A stretch of 34,468 nucleotides of DNA. Source: Deltaproteobacteria bacterium (GTDB lineage Bacteria > Desulfobacterota > Dissulfuribacteria > Dissulfuribacterales > QOAL01). This document shows, piece by piece, positions 2,285 through 32,801 of the stretch. Both the position numbers and the translations under genes were made by a program. Each line of letters opens with the position of its first letter. The first letter of the stretch is position 1. The stretch lies in NCBI GenBank assembly GCA_026992735.1, contig JALWYO010000125.1:1-34468 (forward strand), given 5' to 3'. Under the pieces are notes generated by a model, which saw only the letters and a list, made by a program, of their open reading frames with translations, was not told the DNA's origin and did not search any database.

Positions 2285-2288
2285 TGCC

Positions 2289-8732: not shown

Positions 8733-8843
8733 CACTGGCTGTACACTTTGGGGCTGGTCATCTGGCAGGTATTCCGCAGATGTGCAGGAATTTTCAAATA
8801 TAGCAGATATGACATACAGAAAAATATGAGGGAGAGTCCAAAG

Positions 8844-10334: not shown

Positions 10335-10349
10335 ATGCGTTTACATGCA

Positions 10350-10374
10350 GCCGGATTGTCTGCAGCGATTCGGC
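10350..10374 (+). other. Small hairpin between tssC and hcp
   Basis: A seven-pair stem (GCCGGAT at 10350-10356 with ATTCGGC at 10368-10374, one G-T pair) encloses an 11-base loop in the 101-bp gap before hcp. No T run follows, so it is not a classical terminator. A processing or stability element that lets hcp accumulate above its neighbours is possible, but this is inference and the stem could be chance. Confidence 0.3.
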
Positions 10375-10435
10375 ATAATCTTGTCTGCCTGTTGGGCGAC
10401 AAATATTTTTTCAGAAAAGGAAGGAGGAACAAGCC

Positions 10436-10924: not shown

Positions 10925-10940
10925 TGATCCTGGTGTCTGA

Positions 10941-11354: not shown

Positions 11355-11402
11355 TAACTGATCACAGGGTTATGTCGAGTTTTGTTGCACATTTTCCCCA
11401 TT

Positions 11403-11515
11403 CTATAAGCGTTCACAGGATGCCGCAGATGCAAGGCGGCGGGTGCGCAGTCGTACTCCCTGTACTTCAAGCGCCCGCCAACACAGCAGATGTGGTGTCC
11501 TGTGAACGCTTACAG
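11403..11515. repeat. Structured palindromic repeat, copy 1 (tssE-tssF gap)
   Basis: An 18-base arm at 11403-11420 is complementary to 11498-11515 at 17 of 18 positions; the inner part TAAGCGTTCACAGGA / TCCTGTGAACGCTTA is perfect. Between the arms is a 77-base core (11421-11497) that is itself imperfectly palindromic. It begins TGCCGCAGATGCAAGGCGG, has a central GTAC/GTAC stem (11453-11456 with 11462-11465) and ends with CAACACAGCAGAT and GTGGTG. The core closely matches a second copy at 34363-34438, but the outer arms do not. I see no coding potential in it. It is likely a dispersed intergenic element; its family name is not known to me. Confidence 0.9.
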
Positions 11516-11518
11516 GAG
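11514..11518 (+). promoter_or_regulatory. tssF ribosome-binding site abutting the repeat arm
   Basis: AGGAG at 11514-11518 lies eight bases before the TTG start of tssF. It begins within the last two bases of the long inverted repeat (arm ends at 11515). If the transcript folds along the repeat, the site would sit at the foot of a long stem, which could reduce or modulate tssF translation. Confidence 0.6.
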
Positions 11519-11526
11519 ATAGTGTC

Positions 11527-13260: not shown

Positions 13261-14210
13261 GAGAAGACCTGCTGAAATCCGGCAGCCGGTATTCATATTT
13301 CCAGGCCATGCGTCTGCTGTACCGGCTTGTTGCCTCCAGCAGTCATGACAGGATAAGGACAAGGCCGGAGCTTTCCTTTTCCTTTCCCAGTTCAGACATA
13401 TCAGACATCAAGTATATCCAGGGCAATGGTGAAGGGAAGTATGATATAACCGCGACTTTTTTAGGGCTTTACGGGGTTAGTTCACCGCTTCCCAACTTCT
13501 ACACAGAGGACCTGTTTCTTGAGGCCTCTGAAGACAGGAGTACTTGCAGGGATTTCCTGGATATATTCAACGAGCGGCTCTATGAGCTGTTGTTCAGGTG
13601 CTGGAGAAAATATCACCTCTTTCTGGAGATAACAGAAGACCGGAACAGGTCCTACCTTCAGAGGCTTTTTTGCCTGCTTGGAATCGGAGAGCCGGAATTC
13701 CAGGGCGGTGAACAAGACCCGGGGACTCTTTTGAGATACATCGGGCTGCTGACCCAGCATCCGCGTTCAGCTCAGGGGCTTATAACCATGCTTCGGGATG
13801 CCACAGACGAGGATTCGCTAACAATAGAACCCTGTGTTTTCAGAAAGGTCCAGATACCCACGGATCAACGTACCTGCCTTGGGCAGGCCTGTTCAAGCCT
13901 TGGGATGGATACAGTCATAGGTTCAGAGATACCTGACAGGCAGGGAAAATTCAGGATACAAACCGGACCGCTATCTGCTGAAAAATTCCAGGAGTTTGTT
14001 CCAGGAGGCAGGTGCTACAGGCAGTTATGCAGCCTGACCAGGTTTTATATGCTGGTACCCATGGAATACGAGATGAGCGTGAAATTGAAGGCGGGCGATG
14101 TTCAGAACACCTGCCTTGGTGCTGGAAGCTGGTCGAAGCTTGGAACAGATACGTGGCTGTTTACCGGAGACATGACCCAGGATGGAACAGTCACCTTTTA
14201 CCCACAATAG
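13224..14210 (+). CDS. tssG: T6SS baseplate subunit TssG
   Basis: The 328-residue product fits TssG (ImpH/VasB, about 330 aa), partner of TssF in the baseplate wedge. Family features are Tyr-Ser-Tyr-Phe-Gln-Ala-Met-Arg-Leu-Leu near the N-terminus, Arg-x-Arg-Pro-Glu-Leu-Ser-Phe-Ser-Phe-Pro, and Leu-Tyr-Gly-Val-Ser-Ser-Pro-Leu-Pro-x-Phe-Tyr-Thr-Glu near residue 90. ATG at 13224 is chosen because AGGAG lies about 11 bases upstream, within the end of tssF, and the family pattern starts shortly after. An in-frame upstream ATG at 13020 would add 68 residues of tssF shadow sequence. clpV starts 8 bp downstream. Confidence 0.94.
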   Translation: MGSKDRRPASALREDLLKSGSRYSYFQAMRLLYRLVASSSHDRIRTRPELSFSFPSSDISDIKYIQGNGEGKYDITATFLGLYGVSSPLPNFYTEDLFLEASEDRSTCRDFLDIFNERLYELLFRCWRKYHLFLEITEDRNRSYLQRLFCLLGIGEPEFQGGEQDPGTLLRYIGLLTQHPRSAQGLITMLRDATDEDSLTIEPCVFRKVQIPTDQRTCLGQACSSLGMDTVIGSEIPDRQGKFRIQTGPLSAEKFQEFVPGGRCYRQLCSLTRFYMLVPMEYEMSVKLKAGDVQNTCLGAGSWSKLGTDTWLFTGDMTQDGTVTFYPQ

Positions 14211-14218
14211 GGGGAGTT

Positions 14219-16924: not shown

Positions 16925-16956
16925 AATGGGCAGGAGTTCAATCAAGGAGTAAGAAC

Positions 16957-19179
16957 ATGGCGTACATAGAAGAAAGACGTTTTTCTTTCACATCTTCCGC
17001 ATTGCCCGAAGACACCTTTTCGGTTGTAAACTTCAAAGGCATAGAGGGGATCTCCAGGCTGTACGAGTTCGAGATAACCCTGGTATCCAGCGATTCAGAC
17101 ATAGACATAGACACTGTCCTCAGGAACAGCGTGACCTTCAGCATCCACAGGGAGGAAAAGGACACGGTGTTTCACGGCATAGCCGCCTATTTTGAGCAGC
17201 TTCACGAGGTTGATGAGCAGGTCTTTTACAGGACTCTCCTGGTTCCCAGGCTGTGGCTCTCTGACCAGCAGCACGAAAACCAGCTGTTTCTGGACAAAAC
17301 CGTGCCCGATATAATAGAAGAGATACTTCAACAGGCCGGTCTTACCTCTTTTGATTACGAGTTCAAGCTGACCCGCAATTACAGGCCATGGGAATACATC
17401 TGCCAGTACAGGGAAACGGATTTCGACTTCATATCCAGATGGATGGAGCGCGAGGGCATCTACTATTTCTTTGAACAGACAGACACTGGGGAAAAGATCA
17501 TCATCACTGACAATTCCACTGTCCATCAGGAACTGCCGGACGATTCCACCATATATTATTCTCCGCCTTCTGCTCTTGTCTCTACCGAAGAGGAAGAGAT
17601 ACGGGAATTCATATGCAGGCAGACCAGGCTGCCCCAGAAGGTGCTCCTCAAGGACTACAACTACAGGAAACCATCCCTGGAGATCAGGGGAGAGGCCATG
17701 GTGGACCCGAATTCCAGGGGGATAGTCTATCTCTACGGTGAGCACTTCAAGACCCCTGAGGAGGGGAACGAGCTGGCCAGGATCAGGGCAGAGGAGATCC
17801 TCTGCAGGGAGAAGGTCTTTTTCGGCGAGGGAACGGCAACGTCCATGAGGGCAGGCTATCTCTTTGAGCTAGCAGATCACTACAGGGATAGCTGCAACCA
17901 GCAGTACCTGATAGTAGAGGTGGAGCACGAAGGCAGCCAGGCAGGTTTTTTTATTTCAGGCGTACAGGAAGAGTCCAGCGAGGAAGAGGGAGAGATCGTT
18001 TACAGGAACAAGTTCATGGTGATCCCTGCAGATGTGCAGTTCAGGCCTGAAAGAAAGACTGAAAAACCACGTTTCCACGGGACAATAAATGCAAAGATAG
18101 ACGCTGCAGGCGATGGCCAGTACGCAGAGATAGACGAATGGGGCAGGTACAAGGTGGTGTTGCCATTCGACATGACCGGCAAGGGAGGAGGCAGGGCCTC
18201 TCGCTGGATACGAATGGCCCAGCCCTATTCCGGCCAGGGGTTCGGGATGCACTTTCCCCTGCACAAGGGAACAGAGGTGCTCCTGACCTTCGTGGACGGA
18301 GACCCGGACAGGCCCATTATCGCAGGTTCCGTGCCCAATCCCGAGACCATGAGTCCTGTGACAGGGGATAATCACAGCCAGTGCGTGATCAGGACAGGTG
18401 GAGGGAACGAGTTTCAACTGGAGGATTCTTCAGGAGGCCAGAGGATTAGAATAAGTACGCCGCATTCTGGTACAACTTTGTCTATGGGTGCCCCAAATAG
18501 TCCGGGAGCTGGTTTTTCTTTAAACACAACTGCAGATCTTTTAAATAGGATCGGTGGAGATACAATTTATTTTATAGATGGTTCTAAAAATATTAAGATT
18601 CAAAAAGATAAATCAGAAACCATTGTAGGGTGTGAAAGAAAAACGACCATTGGTGCTTGCTCCGAAAATTTTTACGGGAACAAAGTTTCCAAAAAACTTG
18701 CTACTGAATATGAAGTGACAGTTGGGACCAAGACTTCTGTTTGTGCTGCTCTGAGTTTTGATTTGAAATTTGGACATTTTGCTACAAGGGCGCCTACTGA
18801 GTATGAACTTAAATGGTTCCAAATGGAGAAGAAAGCAGATCTAAAGAAAGACATAGGCAAATTACAAGAGAAAATTGGATCTGTTGACAAAAAGATAGAG
18901 CTTCTGAAAAAAGATGTGACTAGCTGGAATCTCAAAATAACAAGTGCAAAGGAAAAAATTGATCAACTTGATATGGATATCGGTTCACTCAGGCAAAAGA
19001 TAAACAGCGCAAGGGTTCAGGTGTCGGGAACCTATCAACTGAAGGCTTCAACAGTATCCATAAAGGGTAGCAGCGCAAGGCTTGCGTTGGGAGGCGAAGG
19101 TGCGACTCTCCAGGGAAATCCAGTAAGAATAAAGGGTAGCCAGGTAAAGGTCAAAGGCAATGCTCTTAAGATTACATGA
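16957..19179 (+). CDS. vgrG: T6SS spike protein VgrG (TssI) with coiled-coil and beta-repeat tail
   Basis: This 740-residue protein forms the trimeric spike at the tip of the Hcp tube. The gp27-like part is at the N-terminus (Phe-Lys-Gly-Ile-Glu-Gly-Ile-Ser-Arg-Leu-Tyr-Glu-Phe near residues 27-39). The gp5-like OB fold includes Asp-Glu-Trp-Gly-Arg-Tyr-Lys-Val and Val-Asp-Gly-Asp-Pro-Asp-Arg-Pro (about 385-460). Residues ~490-740 form a tail with short beta repeats, a Lys/Glu-rich predicted coiled coil at about 625-685, and a final Ile-Lys-Gly/Val-Lys-Gly repeat. DNA for about residues 495-685 (roughly 18440-19010) is much richer in A+T than the rest, suggesting module exchange. AAGGAG (16944-16949) precedes the ATG. 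No enzymatic C-terminal effector domain is recognised. Confidence 0.95.
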   Translation: MAYIEERRFSFTSSALPEDTFSVVNFKGIEGISRLYEFEITLVSSDSDIDIDTVLRNSVTFSIHREEKDTVFHGIAAYFEQLHEVDEQVFYRTLLVPRLWLSDQQHENQLFLDKTVPDIIEEILQQAGLTSFDYEFKLTRNYRPWEYICQYRETDFDFISRWMEREGIYYFFEQTDTGEKIIITDNSTVHQELPDDSTIYYSPPSALVSTEEEEIREFICRQTRLPQKVLLKDYNYRKPSLEIRGEAMVDPNSRGIVYLYGEHFKTPEEGNELARIRAEEILCREKVFFGEGTATSMRAGYLFELADHYRDSCNQQYLIVEVEHEGSQAGFFISGVQEESSEEEGEIVYRNKFMVIPADVQFRPERKTEKPRFHGTINAKIDAAGDGQYAEIDEWGRYKVVLPFDMTGKGGGRASRWIRMAQPYSGQGFGMHFPLHKGTEVLLTFVDGDPDRPIIAGSVPNPETMSPVTGDNHSQCVIRTGGGNEFQLEDSSGGQRIRISTPHSGTTLSMGAPNSPGAGFSLNTTADLLNRIGGDTIYFIDGSKNIKIQKDKSETIVGCERKTTIGACSENFYGNKVSKKLATEYEVTVGTKTSVCAALSFDLKFGHFATRAPTEYELKWFQMEKKADLKKDIGKLQEKIGSVDKKIELLKKDVTSWNLKITSAKEKIDQLDMDIGSLRQKINSARVQVSGTYQLKASTVSIKGSSARLALGGEGATLQGNPVRIKGSQVKVKGNALKIT

Positions 19180-19195: not shown

Positions 19196-21598
19196 ATGGA
19201 AATAATAAATCTAACCCAATTTTCTACTGCCTCCTTCGGGATAAAGATAGACCCTCCCGATTATGCGGCGGTTTTCATGGTTAAAGGATCTTTTTCCCTT
19301 GAGCTTGATAGGAGGGCTTCAGCGCTCGATGAATCGGATCCCCTTACAGGAGACGTATTTGTTGACGACGATCCGGACAAGAGCTGCATATGTGAATCTG
19401 ATTTTGCACCTTACAAGCCCAAGGCAGATTTGATCTTTTCAGGAAAATGCTATTCTCCAGGCAGGAAACCTGTAACCGTGTGTGATGCAGTTTTCCAGGT
19501 AGGCACTTTTAGCAAGACCGTATTCGTTTTTGGAAACCGCTGGTGGCGGAAAAACTCCATGGGCTTTTGGTCCATGTCTGAACCAGAGCCTTTCCGCGAG
19601 ATGGATCTTATCTATGAAAACAGTTTTGGCGGAGAAGGATTTAAGAATAACCCCTTTGGCAAAGGTATCAAAGAAGTAATAGAGGAGGATGGTGCCAAAT
19701 CATGGCCCCTTCCGAACCTTGAAGATCCTGAAAACCTCATTGCCAGCATCAAGGACAGGCCCATGCCTGCCGGTTTCGGTCCCATTGGACGGACTTGGCC
19801 AATAAGGATGTCAGGCAAGGTGGGAACCTATGATGACGAGTGGCTTAAGACCAGGTGGCCATGGTTTCCTGTGGATTTCGACTGGAGCTACTTCAATTGC
19901 GCTCCTCAAGGCTTGCAGGCGGATGGTTATTTGAGTGGCCATGAATCTATCTTTTTGAAGAATCTCCATCCTGATTATCCTGAGTTTCGCTGTCAGCTTC
20001 CATGCGTAAGGCCGAGGCTGTTTGTCTGTGAATTTACGGAATTCAGCAAAGAAGGCCCGCTTGATGAAGTGAGATTAGTTCTGGATACCCTATGGCTGGA
20101 TATGAACAATGACAAACTCCATCTCGTGTGGCGTGGCGCAAGAAGGGCAAAGACGGAAAAGCTCGATGAACTTGCCAGCTGTTTCCTGGTTTCAGAAGAT
20201 TTGGAGCAGGACCCCCTTCCTGTGGAGCATTACCAGCAGCTTTTCCTCAAAAGCCGGGAATTGGCGGATGAAGACGAGGCGTTTTTGAACGAACTCGATA
20301 AAGAAGAATTGTTTACCTTGGATGATCAATGGCTTCAGGAGATGGAGGCAGATTTTGCCATCATGGACAAGGAGCTCAAAAAGATGGAAGCTGTTGCTGC
20401 TGAAGCGGAAAAGAAGGCGGAAGATCTTCTCAAGGAAGCTGGCATTGATCCCGTAAAGTTTAAAGAGGCTGAGAAAGAGGCGCAGAAACTTTCTCTGAAG
20501 GATATTCTTATCAGGGAGGCACAGCTTCTGAAAGAGCTCGTAAGGGATCATCCTGAACTCGCCGACAAACTGCCTCCGCCTATGAGTCCCGAGGAAATTG
20601 ATGAGCTCTCAAAAGATTTAACTCCTGAATTGGAAGAAACAAAGTTCGAGCCTTTGCCAGAGCCCCTTGATAGAGAGGCCTGTTGCAGAAGGCTGGAGAC
20701 TGGAGAGGGATTCAATGGAGAGGATCTCACAGGTCTTGACCTCTCGGGACTTGATTTTTCAGGTACAGATTGTAGTAACGCGGTTTTTACAGGAGCTGAT
20801 TTGACCTCTGCAGTCTTTCAAGAGGCTGATCTTTCAGGTGCATCATTTGCCGGATGCATCCTTTCCGGATTAAATTTTCAAGGAGCAAGGCTTTTTCAGG
20901 CAGATTTTTCAGGTGCAAACCTTTCGGGTTCTGATCTGGCGGAAGCGGTTCTCGATGATGCAGATTTGTCATCGGCCAATCTTAGGGGAGCAAGATTGGA
21001 TAAAGTGCAGGCAAAAGGGACGCTTTTCGTGGATGCCGATTTAACCAATGCCGTCTTGAAATCAGCCATGCTGCAAGAGGCAGACCTTGAAGGAGCCATA
21101 CTTGCCGGTGCCGACTTCCAAGGCGCCTTCATGAGGGAGGCTTCTGTGGAAAGATGTGCAGGAAGCGATGTCAATATGTCCGGAGCCGATCTGGCCGGTC
21201 TGCATGCAGGGGAAGGCCCTGATTTTACCAACGGGGTATTCAGGGGCTGTATGGCCCCGGGCTCCATATGGGAAGAATCCATACTTGCGGGGGCGGATTT
21301 CTCAGGAGCCATGCTCCAGGAAGCCAACTTTATGTCCGCCAATCTCAGTGGAGCGGTTTTTACAGGCGCCGATCTTGCGAAGGCCCGTCTTGACTGGGCT
21401 GATTTGACAAATACTGTCATGTTTTATGTCAATCTTTTCAAAGGCTGCCTTGAAGGTGCATGCTTGATGAATACGGACTTTCGGGGTGCAAACATGTATG
21501 AGGTTGAGTTCTATCAGGCTGAAATGAGAGATGTCCTTTTCCGTGACACAAATCTGAAGATGACCAAGCTTGAATTCATGCAGAAGCATAATGATTGA
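19196..21598 (+). CDS. DUF2169 T6SS adaptor fused to pentapeptide repeats
   Basis: The N-terminal ~300 residues match DUF2169, found next to vgrG and PAAR genes and thought to help load effectors onto the spike. Markers include Phe-Gly-Asn-Arg-Trp-Trp, Tyr-Glu-Asn-Ser-Phe-Gly-Gly (about residues 140-146) and the Phe-Asn-Cys-Ala-Pro-Gln-Gly-Leu-Gln motif near 240. Residues ~365-475 form a charged, Glu/Lys-rich helical linker. From about residue 500 to 790 the protein is pentapeptide repeats of the A-D/N-L-S/T-G type, expected to fold as a right-handed quadrilateral beta-helix. The gene follows vgrG by 16 bp with a weak ribosome site. Its end overlaps the next gene by 8 bp. There is no signal peptide, so it acts in the cytoplasm or as spike-borne cargo. 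Confidence 0.9.
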   Translation: MEIINLTQFSTASFGIKIDPPDYAAVFMVKGSFSLELDRRASALDESDPLTGDVFVDDDPDKSCICESDFAPYKPKADLIFSGKCYSPGRKPVTVCDAVFQVGTFSKTVFVFGNRWWRKNSMGFWSMSEPEPFREMDLIYENSFGGEGFKNNPFGKGIKEVIEEDGAKSWPLPNLEDPENLIASIKDRPMPAGFGPIGRTWPIRMSGKVGTYDDEWLKTRWPWFPVDFDWSYFNCAPQGLQADGYLSGHESIFLKNLHPDYPEFRCQLPCVRPRLFVCEFTEFSKEGPLDEVRLVLDTLWLDMNNDKLHLVWRGARRAKTEKLDELASCFLVSEDLEQDPLPVEHYQQLFLKSRELADEDEAFLNELDKEELFTLDDQWLQEMEADFAIMDKELKKMEAVAAEAEKKAEDLLKEAGIDPVKFKEAEKEAQKLSLKDILIREAQLLKELVRDHPELADKLPPPMSPEEIDELSKDLTPELEETKFEPLPEPLDREACCRRLETGEGFNGEDLTGLDLSGLDFSGTDCSNAVFTGADLTSAVFQEADLSGASFAGCILSGLNFQGARLFQADFSGANLSGSDLAEAVLDDADLSSANLRGARLDKVQAKGTLFVDADLTNAVLKSAMLQEADLEGAILAGADFQGAFMREASVERCAGSDVNMSGADLAGLHAGEGPDFTNGVFRGCMAPGSIWEESILAGADFSGAMLQEANFMSANLSGAVFTGADLAKARLDWADLTNTVMFYVNLFKGCLEGACLMNTDFRGANMYEVEFYQAEMRDVLFRDTNLKMTKLEFMQKHND

Positions 21599-23597
21599 AG
21601 AACTAAGTCGTCAGGAAGTACTGGATCGGCTGGCCTCAGGCAGGGAACTGATTGAAAAGATATTGATGGATATGGACCTTGCCGGGACAGATTTTAAAGG
21701 GGTAAGCCTCAAGGGCTCTTTCCTGAATAATGTGGATCTTTCTGGTGCGGATTTTTCAGGATGCGAGCTTTCAAAGGCTACATTTTCCAGTTGTGTGCTT
21801 GAAGGGGCCAGGTTGTCCGGCTGCACTATGAAAGAGGCCAATTTTATCCAGTGCAGTATGGACAGAACCGATTTCTCAAGGGCACAATTCGATTGGACAT
21901 ACATGAGAGAGAACAGTTTAAAAGGAGCATATTTAACTGGCGCTCACATCGTTGATTCCGTTATAGGAAAGCTCTGCATGGATGGCGCGGATTTTTCAGG
22001 GGCGGTTTTTAAAAGCTCCATGGTGGATGACACCACTTTCATCAATGCGAAGTTCAAAGGATGCCGTATGAATAAGATGCTGTGGGGGAAGTGTGACTTT
22101 TCATCCTCACTATTTTGTCCTGAGCTTTACGATTCCTCTTGTTTTGAATGCCTGTTCAATGATGTGAATTTTAAGGGTGCTGCCATAAGGGATACCAGTT
22201 TCCACAACGCCGTTTTTGAGGGTGCCATTTTGGCCGGTGCCATTTTTGAGAATGTAGTCTTCAAAAAGTGTGAAATGTCGGCGGTTCTATCCATGCCAAG
22301 CAATTGCGCCAATATGGATTTTAACGGCTCTAACCTGGAGGCCGTCGATCTTTCGGGCCTCGATATGGAATGTACTGATTTGTCAGAGACCAATCTCAAG
22401 AATGTCTCTCTGAGAGGTGCATGTCTTAAGGAGGCCAACCTGTCCCTGGCCGTTCTTGTAAACGCTGATCTTGAAGACGCGGATCTGAGCAATGCCGATC
22501 TCTTGCAAGCCCGCTTGGAGGACACAAATTTTTCAGGTGCAGATCTGACTGGTGCGCGGCTTTCAGGTGTGAATCTTGAAACATGCCGACTTGAAGGAGC
22601 CCGCTTTTATGCCACTGATCTTTCAAACACAGAGATAACTTCTTCTATATTGAGATTGATAAAATTTAAAGCCCTTAATCTAAGTGGATGCCGGTTTTCA
22701 GGAGCCAATCTTTCAGGGCTTGATTTTTCCGAGTCCGATTTATCCGGAACGGACCTTTCAAAGGCAGTGTTGAGAAGGGCCTTCTTCAGGGATGCCGATC
22801 TTTCAGGAGCCAATCTTTCAGGAGCTGACCTCTCCAGTTGCGAATTTAATGAAGCTGTCCTTGAAGAGGCTAATCTGTCGGGAGTCTTGTTCAGAAATGC
22901 CAAGATAGAGTATTCTACATTTACGAACTGTGTTTTTTCAGGCGCTGATCTTTCAGGCGCATATTTTTTCGGATCTGATCTGGAGAATACAGAATTTTTA
23001 AATGTGAATTTTTCAGGCATATGCCTGAAGGAGTGTGATTTTACAGGCTCTCGTCTGACCAGGGCTGACTTCTCCGGGTGTATCTTGACAGACAGTGATT
23101 TTACCAGCTGCGATCTTACAGAAGCGTCCTTAAAGGGCGCAGATATTCACCAGGTAGATTTTACATCTTCGGAACTTTCCGGTGCCGATTTGGACGGTGT
23201 ATTTGGAAGGGCAGTTGATTTTACTGACTGTAATATGAAAGGGGCTCAACTGAACGGAGCAAAGCTAAAGGATGCCTGCCTGGAAGAGGCTGTTCTATTT
23301 GGATTGACGGCTGAAAAAGCCCTTTTCAAAGGGGCAATATTTGCAGGCGCTGACTGCAGAGCCGCTTCTTTTATAGGCAGCGACTTGCAATATGCAAATT
23401 TCTCCAGGGCAGATTTGACCGGAGCTGACTTTTCAAGGGCTGATTTCACTGGAGCAGTACTTCACAGGATCAAGGCGGATGGAATGTTCCTGGAACACGC
23501 AGATATCTCAGGTGCAAAGGGAACTGACAAGGACTTGGCAGAGGCAGAAGATTGGCATCCACCGCCAATTGAGATCTTAGAAAAACGACAGGGATAA
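21591..23597 (+). CDS. Large pentapeptide-repeat protein of the T6SS spike module
   Basis: The 668-residue product is almost entirely pentapeptide repeats, running from about residue 25 to 640: roughly 120 repeats, or about 30 coils of a quadrilateral beta-helix. Short interruptions with Cys, Met and aromatic residues occur (for example about 150-200), as in other long members. ATG at 21591 is chosen because it overlaps the upstream stop by 8 bp (coupled translation) and the following Met-Ile-Glu-Glu-Leu-Ser reads as a normal N-terminal helix; an upstream in-frame start at 21570 adds seven residues. Paired DUF2169 and pentapeptide genes are common in this type of T6SS accessory cluster. Its role (cargo, scaffold or spike extension) is not established. 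Confidence 0.88.
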   Translation: MIEELSRQEVLDRLASGRELIEKILMDMDLAGTDFKGVSLKGSFLNNVDLSGADFSGCELSKATFSSCVLEGARLSGCTMKEANFIQCSMDRTDFSRAQFDWTYMRENSLKGAYLTGAHIVDSVIGKLCMDGADFSGAVFKSSMVDDTTFINAKFKGCRMNKMLWGKCDFSSSLFCPELYDSSCFECLFNDVNFKGAAIRDTSFHNAVFEGAILAGAIFENVVFKKCEMSAVLSMPSNCANMDFNGSNLEAVDLSGLDMECTDLSETNLKNVSLRGACLKEANLSLAVLVNADLEDADLSNADLLQARLEDTNFSGADLTGARLSGVNLETCRLEGARFYATDLSNTEITSSILRLIKFKALNLSGCRFSGANLSGLDFSESDLSGTDLSKAVLRRAFFRDADLSGANLSGADLSSCEFNEAVLEEANLSGVLFRNAKIEYSTFTNCVFSGADLSGAYFFGSDLENTEFLNVNFSGICLKECDFTGSRLTRADFSGCILTDSDFTSCDLTEASLKGADIHQVDFTSSELSGADLDGVFGRAVDFTDCNMKGAQLNGAKLKDACLEEAVLFGLTAEKALFKGAIFAGADCRAASFIGSDLQYANFSRADLTGADFSRADFTGAVLHRIKADGMFLEHADISGAKGTDKDLAEAEDWHPPPIEILEKRQG

Positions 23598-23600
23598 GAA

Positions 23601-24320
23601 ATGTTTGAAACAGGTTTGTCTGATCCAATAAGTGCAGAGAAATCGGGTGTTGGTTATGCATCAGATCAAGTAGCAGTTGAGCAAACTAAAACCATTATAG
23701 CCTCTGATGGTACTAAGGCTAGTCTTGTTTTGTTGCAAGGCCAGGAAAAGATTACCATCACGAGCAGGCAAGGGGAAATTTTCTTCGAGTATTTCCCTGA
23801 GACAGGTAAATGCTCTTTTCATGTCTCCAATGGTGGTCTCCAGGTTAATGTTCCCCATGGAGATATTGCCTTTTCTTCCGGCAGGAATATATCCTTATCT
23901 TGTGCAGGCAGATTAGGTTTAAAGGGTTGCAACGGGATTGATATATCATCAGGATTTAATCTTGGCACCAGAGTTCCAAGAATAAGTATGAATGATCAAC
24001 AGATACAGTTTTCCGCTGACAGAGTTTCTTCGAATTGCTTTAAAGCCGATTTATCATCTGTGAATACCCGGTTTAGAGGTAAAAGATTATCGGCACGTGT
24101 TGGTTCTGCAAAGCTTCATTTGGGTTTGTTAGAAGTACTTTCAGATACCATCCGCCACAAAAGCCGCAAAGTTTATCAGTACGTGGAAGATATTATTCAA
24201 ACCAGGTCAGGTCGAATGAGGACCTTTGTTTCCGGTCTTTTACATCTCAAAGGACAACGTACTTATATAAAGGCCGAGAAGGATGTAAAGGTTAAGGGAG
24301 ATAGAATTCATCTGCGTTGA
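23601..24320 (+). CDS. DUF3540 T6SS spike-accessory protein
   Basis: This 239-residue protein matches the DUF3540 family, which occurs between DUF2169/pentapeptide genes and DUF4150 PAAR-like genes. It is beta-rich. The middle (about residues 40-120) reads as alternating strands similar to the VgrG gp5-like needle, and it ends with Ile-Lys-Ala-Glu-Lys-Asp-Val-Lys-Val-Lys-Gly-Asp, which resembles the end of the VgrG in this window. It is probably a needle-like protein that sits between VgrG and the PAAR tip or holds cargo; that role is inference. An AGGGA lies before the ATG, only 3 bp after the upstream stop. Base composition is more A+T-rich than in the core genes. Confidence 0.85.
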   Translation: MFETGLSDPISAEKSGVGYASDQVAVEQTKTIIASDGTKASLVLLQGQEKITITSRQGEIFFEYFPETGKCSFHVSNGGLQVNVPHGDIAFSSGRNISLSCAGRLGLKGCNGIDISSGFNLGTRVPRISMNDQQIQFSADRVSSNCFKADLSSVNTRFRGKRLSARVGSAKLHLGLLEVLSDTIRHKSRKVYQYVEDIIQTRSGRMRTFVSGLLHLKGQRTYIKAEKDVKVKGDRIHLR

Positions 24321-24349
24321 TGGTAGTTTTTTATAAGGAGGCATGAACA

Positions 24350-24766
24350 ATGTTCGGAATTACAACTAAGTCCATGGGGCAATGCCTGGCCTTTCCAGAC
24401 GTGTGTAAGACGCCTGCCCCTCCATCGCCATCACCTGTTCCTATTCCGTATCCCAATATAGCCATGCCAAGCAATGCCAGGGGAAATACTTGTGCTAAAA
24501 AGGTAAAAATTTGTAACAAGAAGGTCCTAACCAAGAAGTCTGTAATAGGATCTTCTACAGGTGACGAGGCTGGTGTAAATAATGGCGTGGTTTCCAATAA
24601 AATTCGTGGAGAAGCTAAATATAGAACTGGTAGCTCCAAGGTAAAAGTAGAGGGACAAGGTGTTGTTTATCATACCTGTATGACAGCGCAAAATGGTGGT
24701 AGTGCTAACATGCCTGCTGGGACTCAGGTTTCACCTACCCAGGTTCGAGTGACAGTGATGATGTGA
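24350..24766 (+). CDS. DUF4150 PAAR-like spike-tip protein
   Basis: The 138-residue protein carries the DUF4150 (PAAR-like) signature: Phe-Pro-Asp-Val-Cys-Lys-Thr-Pro-Ala-Pro-Pro at about residues 15-25 and Pro-Ile-Pro-Tyr-Pro-Asn-Ile-Ala at about 31-38. PAAR proteins cap the VgrG trimer as a sharp, metal-bound cone and often carry toxins. Here no toxin domain is fused: the protein ends shortly after the cone-like region. A strong AAGGAGG (about 24335-24341) precedes the ATG. It is the last gene of the spike module and is followed by 204 bp without a gene. Confidence 0.9.
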   Translation: MFGITTKSMGQCLAFPDVCKTPAPPSPSPVPIPYPNIAMPSNARGNTCAKKVKICNKKVLTKKSVIGSSTGDEAGVNNGVVSNKIRGEAKYRTGSSKVKVEGQGVVYHTCMTAQNGGSANMPAGTQVSPTQVRVTVMM

Positions 24767-24970: not shown

Positions 24971-26449
24971 ATGCTTAAAAAATTATGGTTTTTTATGATT
25001 TTTTCCTGTTTTTTTGTATCAGTCGCTTGCGCAGACAGCCCCTACGATGGCTGGTGGTTTGACAGTGCGAGGTCAGGTACAGGCACCTCTGTTGAAGTCC
25101 AGGGGAATACTCTTTTTTCAGCAACATATACATACTTAGACGGAGTGCCGATCTGGTACACCTCGGTTTGTGAATACGATGCCGGTACCAGAGCGTATGT
25201 CGGCAAGATACAGTTATGGACCAATGGAGCAGATTCAATGCTGCCAGCCAACCCTGTTTCAATCGAAGCCGGCAGTACATCCATAAAATTTATAACAACA
25301 AATCAGGCCGAGCTGACCATTGACTTTACGGTTTTGGGCGCTACTGAGACAACGTCTGTGGACCTTGTTAAATTCATGCCGGTTGTTTCCCCGGGACTTC
25401 CTGATAACCGGGTTCTTGGTTGGTGGTACGACACTTCTTACAACGGGATGGGTTTTTTCCTTGAGGCGTATGGAGATACCCTTTTCGGCGCCTGGTATCT
25501 GTACCCTGAGAACGGAAATTCCACGGATTATGGTACCTGGCTGACATTTACCGGGCAATTCCAGGGCAATTCCAAGACATTTTCCGCTCCTCTCCTGAAA
25601 TGGACCGGGGGAACGGGATGGGAAGGTGCTGTTTATTCTTCTCCAACGTCTGAAGAGACCAATTCAACAATCTCATTCAGCCTTGAGGATGATGGCACGT
25701 TAAGCACGGTTGTTTCCCAGGCAGGGAGTCCTGCTTCTGCACAGGCTGCTGTTTCACATGATACGGCCATAAAATCCGGGTGTTCTGCCAGTTCTGATGG
25801 AGATCCGTATATTTATCCCTGGGTTGAAACACGTAATATCCTTGTGACCTTTCTTTCTGACAGGGAGATCGAGATTACCGGAGAAGTCCAGTTTTTTAAT
25901 CTTTTCAGTGAAGCACTCTGCAATAACAAGAACGATGTTGATTGGGCAGAAGGGGACATCATATTTGAATACACTGTTGATGATGGCAAGTTTAATGACT
26001 TCTGGCTTGAGCGTCAATGTTCTTATAGCGATGGGCCTAATGATTATCTTTACTCGGATGGTAAATTTTATAATCAACCCCAGCCAATTCCTCACCCTTC
26101 GAACTATTATTTGTATCCTGTAACCGATGTCAATCGTGGTGCCTGGTTTCTTGAAGAGCCTTCTTATAACTTTGATGATTCCGGCCACTGTCAGGACCAG
26201 TATGATCCTGGAGACAACGGGAGAGTTTTTACCTTTACGAAACGTTTTTCAATTCCCGATGCATATCCCACGCCCAATGCACAGTACCGGGTTACAATTC
26301 TTTTAGACTGGGGGGTTAATGACCGGCACGGACATGGATGTGAGTATTATTTCCGGGCTATCTGTGATCCGCAACCAGTGCCCGGCTCTACGGAAGGGCC
26401 TGGAATGAAATTGAACTTGAAACTTCAACGATTCCGGTTTGGTAAGTGA
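24971..26449 (+). CDS. Exported protein with two GWWxD-type beta repeats, function unknown
   Basis: The 492-residue product starts with a clear signal peptide (Lys-Lys, then a hydrophobic Phe-rich core), with likely cleavage after Ala-Cys-Ala at residue 21. A lipoprotein site at Cys20 is less likely because Ser occupies -3. Two copies of a beta motif are visible: Gly-Trp-Trp-Phe-Asp near residue 27 and Gly-Trp-Trp-Tyr-Asp near 150, each followed by a Ser/Asn-Gly-x-Gly turn, Leu-Phe and a Trp-Tyr/Trp-Leu strand. This is a pattern known from exported proteobacterial proteins of unknown role. Residues ~270-480 are Cys-, Asp- and Tyr-rich and not recognised. It follows the PAAR-like gene where effector/immunity genes often sit, but Sec export argues against its being cytosolic T6SS cargo. 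A periplasmic or surface role, possibly immunity, is conceivable. Confidence 0.75.
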   Translation: MLKKLWFFMIFSCFFVSVACADSPYDGWWFDSARSGTGTSVEVQGNTLFSATYTYLDGVPIWYTSVCEYDAGTRAYVGKIQLWTNGADSMLPANPVSIEAGSTSIKFITTNQAELTIDFTVLGATETTSVDLVKFMPVVSPGLPDNRVLGWWYDTSYNGMGFFLEAYGDTLFGAWYLYPENGNSTDYGTWLTFTGQFQGNSKTFSAPLLKWTGGTGWEGAVYSSPTSEETNSTISFSLEDDGTLSTVVSQAGSPASAQAAVSHDTAIKSGCSASSDGDPYIYPWVETRNILVTFLSDREIEITGEVQFFNLFSEALCNNKNDVDWAEGDIIFEYTVDDGKFNDFWLERQCSYSDGPNDYLYSDGKFYNQPQPIPHPSNYYLYPVTDVNRGAWFLEEPSYNFDDSGHCQDQYDPGDNGRVFTFTKRFSIPDAYPTPNAQYRVTILLDWGVNDRHGHGCEYYFRAICDPQPVPGSTEGPGMKLNLKLQRFRFGK

Positions 26450-27161: not shown

Positions 27162-28634
27162 ATGCCCCTGCATGTCAAGATACTGAGTGGCAACGCAGAA
27201 CCCGGGACTGCCGTATTCCAGCAGGATTTTACGCTTGGCAGGCACGGTAGCTGCGATATACGGTTTCAGGACAATGTGGTCAGCAGGTTCCATGCAGAGG
27301 TCTCCTTTGACGGCCAGTGGTGGTGGCTGAAGGACCTGCACAGCAGGAACGGGACGTTCCTGAACGGCCAGAAAATATCCCTTGAAAAGCTGCCTGACAG
27401 GTCTTCGGTGCAGCTTGGCCAGGGAGGGCCTGTCCTCGAGTTCCTGGTCCAGGATGAACGGCCTGCACGGGATGAAAATGAATCCGGGCCTGAGCCTGGA
27501 GAGCTGGAGTCAGAAACCCAGATAATAAGGCATTTCTTTGAAGGGGCAGACGGAGAGCAGGCTGGCGAAAAGACCCTGATGTTCCGCAGGGCCTTCAGGA
27601 AGGCCCACAAGAAGAAATCCAGGAAATACCTGGCGTTTATTGCTGTCAGCGTGCTTCTCCTTTCCGCAGCCGCAGGGGTAATCTACTACCAGAAGGACAG
27701 GATCAGCAGGCTCAGGGCCACTGCCATTGATATATTTTATTCCATGAAGGTCCTGGAGCTGCAGATTGCTCATCTTGAAGACCTCCTGGCCAGGGAAAAG
27801 GCCGCAGGGGCCAGGGTAGCAGCCCTCAGGGTCAAGAAAGACAAGTTTCACGAGCTGGAGCAGACCTACGAGAGGTTTGTTAAAGACCTTGGAGTGTACC
27901 AGGGCCTGCCTCCCCAGGACAGAGTGATACTTAAAGTGGCCAGGATATTCGGCGAGTGCGATGTGAATGTCCCCAAGGGGTTTTCCATGGAGGTCAAGAA
28001 GTACATAGACAAGTGGAGACGCACCGGCAGGCTCAAGAGGGCCATGGACAGGGCCATCAGGAAGGGATATGACCGGGTCGTCACAGAGATATTCAGCGAG
28101 TACGGGGTAACGCCCTACTTTCTTTTCCTTGGCCTGCAGGAAAGCGGTTTCAACGAAAAGGCCATCGGGCCGAAAACACGGTACGGCTATGCAAAGGGCG
28201 CATGGCAGTTCATTCCAATGACTGCCAAACAATACGGGCTCAAGCTCGGCCCCCTTTACAAGAAGAGGAAGTACGACCCGCTTGACCAGAGATTTAACTT
28301 CGTCCTGGCCACCAGGGCGGCTGCAAGATACATCCGGGACCTCTACAACACAGAGGCGCAGGCATCCGGCCTGCTGGTTATGGCAGCCTACAACTGGGGG
28401 CACAACAGGGTCAGGAAGATCATAAGGCGGATGCCGGAGGACCCTAGAAAGAGAAATTTCTGGCATCTCCTGCAATTTACCAGGATACCCAAGGAGACCT
28501 ACGATTACATATTTTATATCTTTTCCGCAGCCGTTGTGTGCGAGGACCCGGCCCTTTTCGGCTTTGACATGCAGTGCGGTTCCGTGCCGGGGATGGAAGG
28601 AGATGGCGTCAATGTCCAGGGCAGGGGAGTATGA
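27162..28634 (+). CDS. FHA domain-transmembrane-lytic transglycosylase fusion
   Basis: This 490-residue protein joins three parts. Residues ~20-95 are an FHA phosphothreonine-binding domain with Leu-Gly-Arg-His (25-27 region), Ser-Arg-Phe-His (41-44) and Ser-Arg-Asn-Gly-Thr (61-65). A single transmembrane helix is at about 156-175. Residues ~310-465 are an SLT/MltD-like lytic transglycosylase with the catalytic-type Leu-Gln-Glu-Ser (Glu327), Gly-Ala-Trp-Gln-Phe-Ile-Pro and Ala-Tyr-Asn-Trp-Gly. A helical spacer (about 180-300) separates membrane and enzyme. FHA would lie in the cytoplasm and the enzyme in the periplasm. Peptidoglycan cutting is needed to fit the TssJLM complex through the wall, so local recruitment through FHA is a reasonable inference. 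It overlaps the next gene by ATGA. Confidence 0.92.
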   Translation: MPLHVKILSGNAEPGTAVFQQDFTLGRHGSCDIRFQDNVVSRFHAEVSFDGQWWWLKDLHSRNGTFLNGQKISLEKLPDRSSVQLGQGGPVLEFLVQDERPARDENESGPEPGELESETQIIRHFFEGADGEQAGEKTLMFRRAFRKAHKKKSRKYLAFIAVSVLLLSAAAGVIYYQKDRISRLRATAIDIFYSMKVLELQIAHLEDLLAREKAAGARVAALRVKKDKFHELEQTYERFVKDLGVYQGLPPQDRVILKVARIFGECDVNVPKGFSMEVKKYIDKWRRTGRLKRAMDRAIRKGYDRVVTEIFSEYGVTPYFLFLGLQESGFNEKAIGPKTRYGYAKGAWQFIPMTAKQYGLKLGPLYKKRKYDPLDQRFNFVLATRAAARYIRDLYNTEAQASGLLVMAAYNWGHNRVRKIIRRMPEDPRKRNFWHLLQFTRIPKETYDYIFYIFSAAVVCEDPALFGFDMQCGSVPGMEGDGVNVQGRGV

Positions 28635-30322
28635 TACAGGCAAGGCTGTTTTTCAAGGATAATCCCGCAAGAGAGTTCCGGCTTTCAGGCCCCACTGTTC
28701 TCGTAGGGCGCTCCCCGGATTGCAATATCGTGATCCCTGATCCATACGTCTCCCGGAAACAGCTCCTGATCATCCTGTCTGAAAACGGGGCATCCCTGAA
28801 GAACGTGGGCAGTAACCCTGTGAAGCTGGGAGGGCGTGGTTTGCCGCCAGGGCAGTCGGCAGGCCTGAAAAATCGGGACGAGATAGAGGTTGGCAGGACC
28901 AGTCTGGTCTTTTCCATTGAAGGGCCGGCCAGTGCTGCCACCGCAGGGTCACCCAGGAAGGCCGATGTTGTCCAGGATGAAAAGACCGTCCTGCTGTCAA
29001 CCCCCGGCAAGGCCCGCGGCCCGGCCATCCTGGTGTCTCCCCCGTCTGGTGCGGACTGGACAGTTGAGCTTGACCACTCTCCCGTGACCATAGGCAGGGC
29101 AGGGGATGCTGACATAAGGCTTTCGGACAGAACGGTATCCAGGCACCACGCGGTAATAGAACGACGTGACGGCGGTTTTTACATAAAGGGAGTCAGCAAG
29201 GTAAACCCGGTGCTGATAAACGGCCGGAAGGCAGGAGAAGCAAGGCTCTATTCCGGGGACCAGATCAAGATAGGGGTCTTCTCCCTCTCGTTTTTATCCG
29301 ATGACCGCAGGGATTTGCGTCCCAGGCCAGGCTCCCATGGCGTTTCCACTGGCCGCCTTGTATTCTTATGGGTCCTTGCAGCCCTGCTTGTACTGGCAGC
29401 AGGTTCCTACCTCTTCTATTTCCAGGTTTACAGGCCCTGGACGATACGCAACAACCTGAAAGAGGCTGAACAGAGTATCCAGCTTGGAGACACTGGCAGG
29501 GCTGACAGGATTCTGGAAAAGATGCTCTCTGGCGAACTTCCCGGGGAATATTCTGCACGGGCCCGCAAGCTGCTTTCACAGTCCATTCTGGTTCAGGCGG
29601 AAAAATTATCCCGTGCTGGAGACCCTTCTGCCGCAGAAAGGCTCTTGATTTCTTTTCTAAAGCGATACGGGGCAGGTCCGGATACCCAGGTTGTATGGGA
29701 TAATCTTGACAGGTACAGGATAGAGGCTGCGAAAAAACTTGAGCATGACGGGAAACTCCTTGCAGCCATGAAGAAGTATTCCATGGTGGAAAAAGAAAGC
29801 CCCTACTATGACGACGCCCAGAAGCAGATCAGCCGGATCTGGCTGGCATACCAGAAGGAAAAGCTCAGGAAACAGACTGTCTACCAGCTCATGCAGGAGG
29901 CCGAGCAGGCATTCAGGGAAGGCCGCTACCTTGCTCCTGTGAACCATAATGCCTATGCCGCATACCAGGCCATCCTCTCCATAGATCCTTCAAATCAACT
30001 GGCCAGGAAGAGAATCCAGGAGATTCTGGATATCTTCAGGAAAAAGGGAGAAGAGGCGCTTTCACGCCGGGATTATCAGGAGGCCCTTGGATATTTCGAA
30101 CGCTACCTTCTTGTTAACCCTGATGATCAAGAAGTAAAGGAACAGGCGTCCCTATGCCGGGAACAACTCGCAGGAAGTAGCAAGACCTCGGAAACAAGGC
30201 AAAAGGAACGGGTAAGAAAGCTTTTAAAGGAATCAGGGGCAGAATCCTCCTGGATAATGAAGTACCTGTTCGAAGATGAAAAAAAGAAGGATGAAAAAAA
30301 CAAGACGGAAACACCGTGGTAA
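28631..30322 (+). CDS. Double-FHA, transmembrane, TPR-like protein
   Basis: The 563-residue product has two FHA domains in tandem. FHA1 is at about 22-95 (Val-Gly-Arg-Ser, Ser-Arg-Lys at 41-43; the usual His is replaced). FHA2 is at about 142-218 (Ile-Gly-Arg-Ala, a complete Ser-Arg-His-His at 170-173). A transmembrane helix at ~243-263 is followed by ~300 residues of helical repeats resembling TPRs in the periplasm. FHA1 lacks the classical SRxH and may not bind phosphothreonine well. A linker motif Glu-Lys-Thr-Val-Leu-Leu (Thr119) lies between the FHA domains. ATG at 28631 overlaps the upstream TGA (ATGA), so it is translationally coupled to the FHA-transglycosylase. A likely scaffold for a phospho-dependent envelope complex. 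Confidence 0.88.
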   Translation: MIQARLFFKDNPAREFRLSGPTVLVGRSPDCNIVIPDPYVSRKQLLIILSENGASLKNVGSNPVKLGGRGLPPGQSAGLKNRDEIEVGRTSLVFSIEGPASAATAGSPRKADVVQDEKTVLLSTPGKARGPAILVSPPSGADWTVELDHSPVTIGRAGDADIRLSDRTVSRHHAVIERRDGGFYIKGVSKVNPVLINGRKAGEARLYSGDQIKIGVFSLSFLSDDRRDLRPRPGSHGVSTGRLVFLWVLAALLVLAAGSYLFYFQVYRPWTIRNNLKEAEQSIQLGDTGRADRILEKMLSGELPGEYSARARKLLSQSILVQAEKLSRAGDPSAAERLLISFLKRYGAGPDTQVVWDNLDRYRIEAAKKLEHDGKLLAAMKKYSMVEKESPYYDDAQKQISRIWLAYQKEKLRKQTVYQLMQEAEQAFREGRYLAPVNHNAYAAYQAILSIDPSNQLARKRIQEILDIFRKKGEEALSRRDYQEALGYFERYLLVNPDDQEVKEQASLCREQLAGSSKTSETRQKERVRKLLKESGAESSWIMKYLFEDEKKKDEKNKTETPW

Positions 30323-31959
30323 CCCGCCTGATTAATTATTGCTATTTGTTCTTGTTTGTTCTTGCCTTTCTTGCGTCCTGTGCAAGGGAAAAGCCTGCTG
30401 AGCTTTTCCACGTATCTGGCAGTGAGCTGCCCAGAAGGGTTGCCATTATGCCGTTTTCCAATCACAGCCAGTCAGAGCAGGCTGGTCCCATCGTGCGGAA
30501 GATGTTCTATAATTTTTTCAGCTCTCTCAATTATGTTGACGTGGAGCCCAGTGAAGTTGACGATATCCTCAGGCAGGCAGGCATCTACGACGACATAGTA
30601 AAAGGCAGGGCAGTGGATATTCAACAGGCCTGTCAGGTTCTGGGTGCGGATGCCCTGATCTTTGGAGATGTTACCACCTTTGGAAAGATATACGCTGTGC
30701 TCTATTCAGAAGTGCGGGCTGGCATGAAGGCCAGGATGCTGGCCTGTCCGTCCGGCAATCCTGTCTGGTCATACGAGCATACTTCCCATATCGGCGAGGG
30801 CGGGATATCCATCAGCCCTCTTGGCCTGGCTTCTACTGCCGCAAAAGTGCTTCTTAACCTGCGCCAGACCATTGGAATGCGCGTGGTCTCTGATCTCTGC
30901 ATGCAGATGACCTCTACAATCCCCAATCCTCCGGGCATAACCAGGACGGGACCCAGGATCAAGGTGCTGGTGCATAACGGTGCTAACCGGCTCCTGGTCC
31001 CTGGTGACAGGTTGAAGGTAGTGATGGTAGGTGAACCCGGCATGTCCGCATCATGGGCCATATCTCCAGGCAGGGAAGGGCTAAGGATGGAGGAAAAGGA
31101 ACCCGGTGTCTATGTTGGTGTTTACCAGGTCCAGCAGGGGGACAGGATAATGTCCGGCCAGGTCATAGGCTATCTTCAAGGGCGGGATGGCGGCATGAGC
31201 AGGTGGCTGGATGTACTGGGGCCGGTTACCATGGCAATGCCTACAGTGTTGCCTGTCAGGGTTAAGGGCCAGCTCGTCCTTGACAGGCACGGCAGTCCCT
31301 ATGTCATACAGGACACTCTGGTGGTTGGCAGTGGAGACCGGCTTGTCATTGATCCTGGAGTGCAGGTCTGGGTCAAGGGGCTTGGCATAGTGGTCATGGG
31401 AAGCCTTTCGGTTACTGGCAGCCAGGCAGAACCTGTGCGTATCAAAGGCCAGGCAGATTCGATATGGAAGGGTATAATTATGGATTCCCCGCAAGGTGTT
31501 GCGAAGTTAAGGTATCTTGCTGTCAGCGGTGCCGAAAGGGGCATCGCAGCAAAAGATGCTGTAATATTACTGGACCATTGCATCCTCTCCGGAAATACCT
31601 GGGGAATTGTGATTGATGAATCCAATGCCACCATAACCGCCTCGGTCATCAGCCAGTCTGCCAAGACCGGCATAAGTCTCAGGAATGCAAAGGCAGTGAT
31701 AACGGGTTCTGCCATGGTGGAAAATGCTTCGGGTGGTGTCCTGGTCAAGGCATCTGAAGTGGAGATTCATCAAAGCGACATATTCAATAACGGAAAATGG
31801 AATCTCAAGGTGATGGACAGTGATTCCAGGGTGGATGCAAGGCAAAACTGGTGGGGCATTTCAGGGCCTGGCCTGAATGGCCTTGGCATAGAAGGGCCGG
31901 TTAAAGTGCAGCCTGTTCTCAAGGCGAGCAGCCGGTCTGCATTCAAGACAAGCAAATAG
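30316..31959 (+). CDS. GNA1162-like lipoprotein with C-terminal beta-helix
   Basis: A 547-residue lipoprotein with lipobox Leu-Ala-Ser-Cys (Cys22). Residues ~38-205 resemble the GNA1162/DUF799 lipoprotein fold: Arg-Arg-Val-Ala-Ile-Met-Pro-Phe, Tyr-Val-Asp-Val-Glu-Pro, Leu-Gly-Ala-Asp-Ala-Leu-Ile-Phe-Gly-Asp-Val. A middle beta region (about 210-320) follows. Residues ~325-530 look like a right-handed parallel beta-helix of the pectate-lyase type, with repeated short strands and an Asn-Trp-Trp-Gly near the end, as in other periplasmic copper/NosD-like repeats. It starts at GTG 30316, 7 bp inside the upstream gene. Ala at +2 predicts the outer membrane. It is probably the outer-membrane partner of the FHA membrane proteins; that is inference. 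Confidence 0.8.
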   Translation: MVTRLINYCYLFLFVLAFLASCAREKPAELFHVSGSELPRRVAIMPFSNHSQSEQAGPIVRKMFYNFFSSLNYVDVEPSEVDDILRQAGIYDDIVKGRAVDIQQACQVLGADALIFGDVTTFGKIYAVLYSEVRAGMKARMLACPSGNPVWSYEHTSHIGEGGISISPLGLASTAAKVLLNLRQTIGMRVVSDLCMQMTSTIPNPPGITRTGPRIKVLVHNGANRLLVPGDRLKVVMVGEPGMSASWAISPGREGLRMEEKEPGVYVGVYQVQQGDRIMSGQVIGYLQGRDGGMSRWLDVLGPVTMAMPTVLPVRVKGQLVLDRHGSPYVIQDTLVVGSGDRLVIDPGVQVWVKGLGIVVMGSLSVTGSQAEPVRIKGQADSIWKGIIMDSPQGVAKLRYLAVSGAERGIAAKDAVILLDHCILSGNTWGIVIDESNATITASVISQSAKTGISLRNAKAVITGSAMVENASGGVLVKASEVEIHQSDIFNNGKWNLKVMDSDSRVDARQNWWGISGPGLNGLGIEGPVKVQPVLKASSRSAFKTSK

Positions 31960-32018: not shown

Positions 32019-32801
32019 ATGAAACAGGTATGGTTGACTTCACTTTCCAAGGATGAAAAGGAAGTGCAGCAGGTCATGAAAAGTTTAAAGGGTTATGGTC
32101 TCGGCGTGGATGGCCACTTCTGGGAAGATGACCTGGAAAAGATGGCCTGGATGGGGCCAAGGGATATGCTGCTCAGCAAGGATATTGCGGCCTGGCTGCT
32201 CTACATAAGGGGTGATGCCTTTATTAAAAAGGAAAGCGTGAGGTATGGCCTGTCTCTGCTGGCCATGACTGTTACAGCGGCCCGTGGGCTGGACTTCCCT
32301 ATACTGGCACTGCTTGACGGTGCAGAGCTGGATGCGGAATCACTTTCCACTCCTCTGGCGGGCATGGAACTCATGGATGTAAGTAACCCTGCCTCAATGG
32401 CAAAGATAGTTGCTGCCGTGCACAAAACACGCGGGAAGGGTGTGCAGGCTCCCGGATACCGTATAGATGTGTATGGGAATCCCCAGATAGGGCAGTGGTT
32501 TGAGACAGGGTCAGGTGATGGCGGCTGGAAAGGTGCAGTGTTTGGCGTGTCCGGAGGCAACATAGTATTTCAGGCAGTGGGTCCCAAGGGAAGGCTTCCT
32601 GAACGATCGGTGCTCCATTATCCAGTGCAGGGGATGGATATCGAGATGGGAGGCCAGAAATTCACTGCCTGGGGTGTTCAGAATGAACTTACGGAAGCTG
32701 ATTCCTATTTTGTAAAAGTAGAAGGCCAGCCCGATGCCATTATATTCGGCCCGTATCCCCATACAGACGAGGCAGAGGTCTATAAAATTAGGCTTAAATA
32801 G
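32019..32801 (+). CDS. Uncharacterised protein, possible TIR-like N-terminal domain
   Basis: This 260-residue protein has no signal peptide or membrane helix. Residues 1-110 follow a TIR-like layout: Gln-Val-Trp-Leu-Thr-Ser-Leu-Ser-Lys-Asp-Glu-Lys, a helix, Gly-Leu-Gly-Val-Asp, then Asp-Ile-Ala-Ala-Trp-Leu-Leu-Tyr-Ile, Lys-Lys-Glu-Ser and Phe-Pro-Ile-Leu-Ala-Leu-Leu-Asp. The resemblance is in pattern only. Residues ~145-260 are beta-rich with Gly-Gly turns and no known family. GGGGGGCT precedes the ATG. It is the last + strand gene, 59 bp after the lipoprotein, and its 3' end overlaps the convergent broken kinase gene by 8 bp. Base composition matches its neighbours. Candidates are a T6SS-linked effector, a signalling protein or an unrelated accessory. 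Confidence 0.6.
   Translation: MKQVWLTSLSKDEKEVQQVMKSLKGYGLGVDGHFWEDDLEKMAWMGPRDMLLSKDIAAWLLYIRGDAFIKKESVRYGLSLLAMTVTAARGLDFPILALLDGAELDAESLSTPLAGMELMDVSNPASMAKIVAAVHKTRGKGVQAPGYRIDVYGNPQIGQWFETGSGDGGWKGAVFGVSGGNIVFQAVGPKGRLPERSVLHYPVQGMDIEMGGQKFTAWGVQNELTEADSYFVKVEGQPDAIIFGPYPHTDEAEVYKIRLK

Follow-up and report, generated by a model that had tools for sequence, protein, structure and literature searches.

T6SS assembly needs the peptidoglycan to be opened locally, and only in a few systems is it known how producers do this to their own wall with the right placement and timing: TagX cuts peptidoglycan for T6SS assembly (PMC5061870), and so does MltE, according to a review (PMC10433429, which cites Santin and Cascales 2017). 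The way in which the threonine-phosphorylation pathway sets assembly going is likewise not fully understood, though phosphothreonine reading by Fha promotes it, as described for PpkA/Fha and for FHA-pThr-TssL binding (PMC3953482, PMC12607579). The locus described here brings the two together in one chain: it contains a gene in which an FHA domain is joined through a transmembrane (TM) helix to an SLT domain (hereafter FHA-SLT). FHA-SLT is probably a lytic transglycosylase that sits in the inner membrane, is dedicated to the T6SS and is controlled through phosphothreonine; we infer from sequence its activity, the phosphorylation of Thr138, the recruitment to the T6SS and the direction of control.

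The window, i.e., the whole stretch of DNA that was analysed (34,468 nucleotides), is the entire contig C125 of genome G000, and carries a near-complete T6SS locus with the following features around the FHA-SLT gene:

180 to 19179, forward strand: T6SS core genes in the order TssK, TssL, TssM, TagF, TssA, B, C, Hcp, TssE, F, G, ClpV, VgrG (domain matches).
19196 to 24766, forward strand: tip genes in the order DUF2169-pentapeptide, pentapeptide, DUF3540, PAAR-like (Pfam).
28631 to 30322, forward strand: FHA-FHA-TM-TPR protein (Pfam; same order in genome G013).
32019 to 32801, forward strand: 260-aa protein, function not assigned (conserved near FHA-SLT in G294, G365 and G568).

After the PAAR-like gene come, again all on the forward strand, a 492-aa ORF, a lipoprotein-like ORF, FHA-SLT, the FHA-FHA-TM-TPR gene, a GNA1162/beta-helix gene and the gene for the 260-aa protein. 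The T6SS setting that had been proposed from the letters is therefore real, with TssK to VgrG and a PAAR-like protein preceding FHA-SLT on the same strand. The same proposal took 20 kb from tssM as its distance; tssM (2289-5771) is 21.4 kb from the gene and falls just outside it in the window, although the T6SS locus itself is confirmed. FHA-SLT starts 12 bp downstream of the preceding gene and its stop overlaps the ATG of the FHA-FHA gene (ATGA, 28631-28634), so translational coupling of these two genes is likely. A TssJ match begins at base 20 of contig C88 of the window genome and, since TssJ directly precedes TssK in G397, this edge position fits a contig break upstream of TssK.

Several neighbours are worth recording in their own right. 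The 492-aa ORF (24971-26449) has no Pfam match, and its position fits a putative T6SS cargo or tip accessory. Between the two FHA domains of the protein at 28631-30322 lies a DEKTV motif, which the G013 copy shares and which resembles the GEKT motif of FHA-SLT described below. The protein at 30316-31959, encoded where the run of T6SS genes ends, combines a GNA1162-like lipoprotein domain and then a right-handed beta-helix in one chain. The 260-aa protein is without a Pfam match and has counterparts near FHA-SLT in G294, G365 and G568 at E about 1e-70 to 1e-76.

The FHA-SLT gene is an intact ORF with an ATG start, exactly as the sequence-only reading gave it, and its parts are as follows:

27162 to 28634, forward strand: FHA-TM-SLT fusion protein, 490 aa (ORF, Pfam and orthologues).
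27231 to 27419, forward strand: FHA domain, residues 24-86 (Pfam E 3e-18; alignment).
27564 to 27596, forward strand: juxtamembrane linker motif GEKTLMFRRAF, residues 135-145, with the Thr138 codon at 27573-27575 (Thr in 24/24 sequences).
27630 to 27686, forward strand: predicted single TM helix, residues 157-175 (N-in by the positive-inside rule).
27687 to 28091, forward strand: putative periplasmic helical stalk and conserved pre-SLT region, residues 176-310 (alignment; helical in a low-confidence model).
28092 to 28571, forward strand: MltD-type lytic transglycosylase domain, residues 311-470 (Pfam SLT, NCBIfam, PDB 8rhe profile, Glu in 24/24).

Profile searches and a hydropathy scan bear out the features that had been named from the letters, namely an FHA domain with SRxH and RNG, one TM helix, and an SLT/MltD-like domain with Glu327. 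The FHA domain (PF00498) scores 66.4 bits against a Pfam cut-off of 20.7, with SRFH at residues 41-44 and RNG at residues 62-64, and SLT (PF01464) scores 56.6 bits (E 2.3e-15) against a cut-off of 21.3 at residues 319-427. Glu327 (codon 28140-28142) opens the ES motif (QESGF from residue 326) at the catalytic ES position, and the domain also has the motifs GAWQFIP, AYNWG and IPKETYDY. The MltD-type affinity is indicated by NCBIfam PRK10783 (E 1e-13), and PDB 8rhe is matched by the family profile across the SLT-domain residues (E 6e-14). Residues 176-310 are without a Pfam match, and the AlphaFold model, made from two sequences, is of low confidence (pLDDT 39.8).

The sole strong hydrophobic segment is 157-175 (Kyte-Doolittle 2.38), with a net charge of +10 in the preceding 20 aa and +2 after it, and a hydropathy scan of the protein found no signal-like hydrophobic segment at the N-terminus. 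Given this basic N-side of the helix and the lack of a signal peptide, the FHA domain should be cytoplasmic and the SLT domain periplasmic, an arrangement that the protein fits.

Trivial origins for the fusion were considered. A frame error or chimera was ruled out by a 64% identical copy with the same gene order in another genus (G013), and chance domain calls by the finding of both domains over the Pfam cut-off in ten orthologues; the fusion is not an assembly artefact, as it recurs in 25 genomes.

The spread of the family was assessed with a two-sequence profile searched against 395 genomes of the phylum and the window genome. Five matches were found at E <= 1e-147, followed by a gap to 1e-31, where ordinary MltD-like proteins begin, and the latter align from residue ~230 or later only. 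Carriers make up 19 of 291 genomes in the class of G365, 3 of 42 in the class of G397 and 1 of 23 in the class of G294, with a total of 25 genomes, from at least 11 families of the phylum, having an FHA-SLT orthologue, and all ten orthologues checked have both FHA and SLT over the Pfam cut-off. The nearest relative, in G013 (64% identity), shares the gene order from TssA to PAAR, FHA-SLT and FHA-FHA. One copy (L155, G647:C176:526-1943) is broken by in-frame stops, in a draft genome that is 77% complete and in which no T6SS was found, which fits either decay of the gene once the T6SS had been lost or an error in sequencing. A tblastn search of plasmids returned 41 records that matched the SLT part only, none covering 80% of the query; a contig search with patterns drawn from one protein returned the G013 copy alone and is too weak to speak for other phyla. 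Both halves of the protein and the threonine-phosphorylation pathway are already known. No description of FHA and SLT in one protein was found in the literature searched, and nothing in it appears to describe the architecture, how widely it occurs or the juxtamembrane Thr that never varies.

Conservation was examined in an alignment of the 24 intact sequences, leaving out the broken G647 copy, with pairwise identities of 38-84% (median 48%). The FHA residues that contact phosphothreonine (R27, S41, R42, H44 and N63), plus G64, are invariant (24/24), as are the SLT residues E327, W348, Q349, Y410 and N411. Thr138 is equally invariant (24/24) within the motif G[EQ]xT[MLI]M.R.A[FY], while the rest of the linker between the FHA domain and the TM helix is variable; the commonest residue reaches a mean frequency of 0.77 in the linker motif, as against 0.24 in the post-FHA linker (98-117) and 0.55 in the FHA domain. 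This pattern makes Thr138 a candidate phospho-acceptor site.

The association with the T6SS extends beyond the window. TssK is present in 95 of the 291 genomes in the class of G365, being found in 17 of the 19 carriers vs 78 of the 272 non-carriers (Fisher p 1.7e-7, odds ratio 21, with shared ancestry among the 291 genomes not corrected). The two carriers lacking TssK are G537 (96% complete, no TssK or VipB found) and G647, which has the broken gene. The sequence-only reading had held that homologues mainly away from T6SS loci would count against it, and here the outcome is mixed. On contigs of at least 18 kb, T6SS core genes are within ~25 kb of FHA-SLT in 9 of 17 (G000, G013, G397, G365, G676, G589, G603, G720 and G568) but not in the other eight (G294, G452, G512, G537, G671, G561, G473 and G634), though most genomes with unlinked copies have a T6SS elsewhere, e.g., with TssK ~400 kb from FHA-SLT on the complete chromosomes of G634 and G671. 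Furthermore, 78 of the 95 T6SS genomes in the class of G365 are without the fusion, making FHA-SLT an accessory rather than a core T6SS part.

These unlinked copies, some of them hundreds of kb off on complete chromosomes, could also be read as belonging to a kinase-regulated general enzyme of wall remodelling (growth, division or envelope stress), whose proximity to the T6SS in some lineages would be due to chance or to kinases used in common. G537, which has the gene and an adjacent PP2C without a detectable T6SS, agrees with such a role and, together with the eight unlinked copies, means that service to the T6SS may not be exclusive. Even so, a general enzyme seems to us a rather unlikely explanation, as FHA-SLT is sporadic (19/291), unlike the housekeeping MltD, and TssK accompanies it in nearly all carriers of that class (17/19). 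The sole broken copy is, moreover, in the draft genome without a T6SS found, and several unlinked copies (G634, G512) occur together with FHA-FHA relatives of proteins from the T6SS-linked loci.

The phosphothreonine signalling context, also anticipated from the letters, is seen in the kinase and phosphatase genes next to many orthologues. Ser/Thr kinase (STPK) or PP2C genes are within 20 kb in 14 of the 25 carrier genomes; in G452, G537, G555 and G642 the gene immediately upstream, in the same orientation, encodes PP2C, in G568 and G294 the immediate neighbour encodes a kinase, and G365 has one co-directional run of kinase, PP2C, cyclase-FHA and FHA-SLT. The same search found T6SS, kinase and PP2C genes in none of 14 ordinary MltD-like SLT loci, which were shorter on average (5-19 kb). 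An accessory module of STPK, PP2C, FHA-FHA and a TssB-TssC fusion travels with FHA-SLT. Kinase and phosphatase are thus encoded with an FHA protein, as in the threonine-phosphorylation pathway, and in the window genome the set (kinase, PP2C, FHA-FHA and a TssB-TssC-like module) is on another contig, C22.

Two further observations concern these accessory genes. Single proteins that match both TssB (VipA) and TssC (VipB) are found near FHA-SLT, extra to the normal sheath genes, at G397:C15:81693-83222 (L071:17694-19220), where the gene is directly upstream, at G365:C58:80175-81794 and at G294:C58:25528-27111; a brief literature search found no paper describing them. The TssB-TssC-like gene of the window genome (G000:C22:6894-7910, L039), beside the kinase, PP2C and FHA-FHA genes, is interrupted by unknown bases and an in-frame TAG. 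In addition, PF20232, which is the C-terminal domain in canonical Fha, weakly matches short frames of 250-282 aa (G365:C58:114633, G634:C1:2170562, G603:C1:5456643, G589:C18:21952, G568:C3:3635 and G000:C42:1351), five of the six adjoining TssK, and the similar G397 protein, the one checked, has no FHA domain. Fha is perhaps split in these systems, with the FHA domains supplied by separate proteins.

Phosphothreonine need not be involved if the FHA domain is merely an anchor, whose phospho-independent binding to a baseplate or membrane protein of the T6SS places a constitutively active enzyme with no phospho-switch. FHA domains of the GarA/OdhI type also bind partners without phosphothreonine, to judge from the title of Nott et al. 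2009 (cited in PMC12321487). We regard such an anchor as unlikely, however, in view of the invariance of every canonical phosphothreonine-contact position in all 24 sequences and of the kinase and PP2C phosphatase genes as neighbours.

A secreted effector, with its peptidoglycan-cutting domain fired into prey, was considered as well, since T6SS effectors include SLT-type enzymes and FHA-SLT comes after VgrG, DUF2169 and PAAR-like genes in the window. This reading is highly improbable and was rejected, as an internal TM helix and a cytoplasmic phosphothreonine-reading domain would be useless to such a protein, the sequence shows conservation instead of variability, and no recurring immunity gene was found beside FHA-SLT when the orthologue loci were compared.

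A T6SS-dedicated transglycosylase under phosphothreonine control would work as follows. The FHA domain would face the cytoplasm, with the basic linker, the TM helix and the helical stalk holding the MltD-type SLT domain in the periplasm. The Ser/Thr kinase and PP2C of the T6SS threonine-phosphorylation pathway would determine how far partner proteins, and probably also Thr138 in the enzyme's own linker, are phosphorylated. Binding of FHA to phosphothreonine would then gather or release FHA-SLT at the assembling membrane complex, so that the producer's peptidoglycan would be opened only where TssJLM and the tail must pass. Most likely, kinase-dependent phosphothreonine marks would concentrate FHA-SLT at the assembling complex and the SLT domain would open the wall there. 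The mark may be carried by TssL or another T6SS protein, by the FHA-FHA partner or by Thr138 itself. We also put forward, tentatively, a transmembrane phospho-switch, in which the neighbouring kinase would phosphorylate Thr138, the protein's own FHA domain or that of a partner would capture it, and this capture, or a release, would alter oligomerisation and thereby switch the periplasmic enzyme on or off from the cytoplasmic side, so that T6SS assembly would begin with a licensed cut in the wall.

The family matters as a physical link between wall opening and threonine phosphorylation, found in at least 25 genomes and with its key residues conserved in all 24 intact copies. This link is directly testable by the single-residue variants R27A, T138A and E327Q. 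It suggests that the cell licenses the cutting of its own wall so that the T6SS can assemble and, if true, would be a case in which a wall-cutting enzyme is under inside-out phospho-control across just one TM helix.

Among known systems, GarA and OdhI are turned off by phosphorylation of a conserved phospho-Thr motif (ETTS) that lies outside the FHA fold (PMC12321487, PMC5448819). FHA-SLT likewise pairs an FHA domain with a conserved, putative phospho-Thr motif outside the fold, which in GarA/OdhI forms an intramolecular switch. However, the ETTS motif is N-terminal and those proteins are soluble metabolic regulators, whereas the motif of FHA-SLT is C-terminal to the FHA domain and beside the membrane, and the resemblance is suggestive only. 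MltE of enteroaggregative E. coli is a lytic transglycosylase that opens the producer's wall for the T6SS membrane complex, a role that FHA-SLT may share, but according to the review (PMC10433429) MltE does housekeeping work, its gene lies elsewhere and TssM stimulates it, whereas FHA-SLT is of the MltD type, carries an FHA domain in the same chain and often has its gene among T6SS or kinase genes. In Acinetobacter, TagX (PMC5061870) is an inner-membrane peptidoglycan hydrolase, as FHA-SLT is predicted to be; it is encoded in a T6SS cluster and required for the T6SS, yet it belongs to the L,D-endopeptidases of the LAS family and has no FHA domain, while the Pfam scan of FHA-SLT gives SLT and no peptidase domain.

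A regulatory parallel in gene content is the pathway of Fha/TagH with PpkA-PppA, where an FHA protein is likewise encoded with Ser/Thr kinase and PP2C genes and controls T6SS assembly. Canonical Fha differs in having a T6SS_FHA_C tail and no enzyme, and FHA-SLT scores 34.5 bits against a cut-off of 120.25 for TIGR03354, with no PF20232 in its Pfam scan. With MltD of family 1D (PDB 8rhe) it shares an SLT core with the ES, WQF, AYN and PxET motifs, but it is without the LysM (by Pfam), the lipobox and the signal peptide, scores 50.1 bits against a cut-off of 508 for PRK10783 and is anchored by its internal TM helix. Judged by these profile scores and domain contents, FHA-SLT is a family outside both canonical Fha/TagH and MltD proper.
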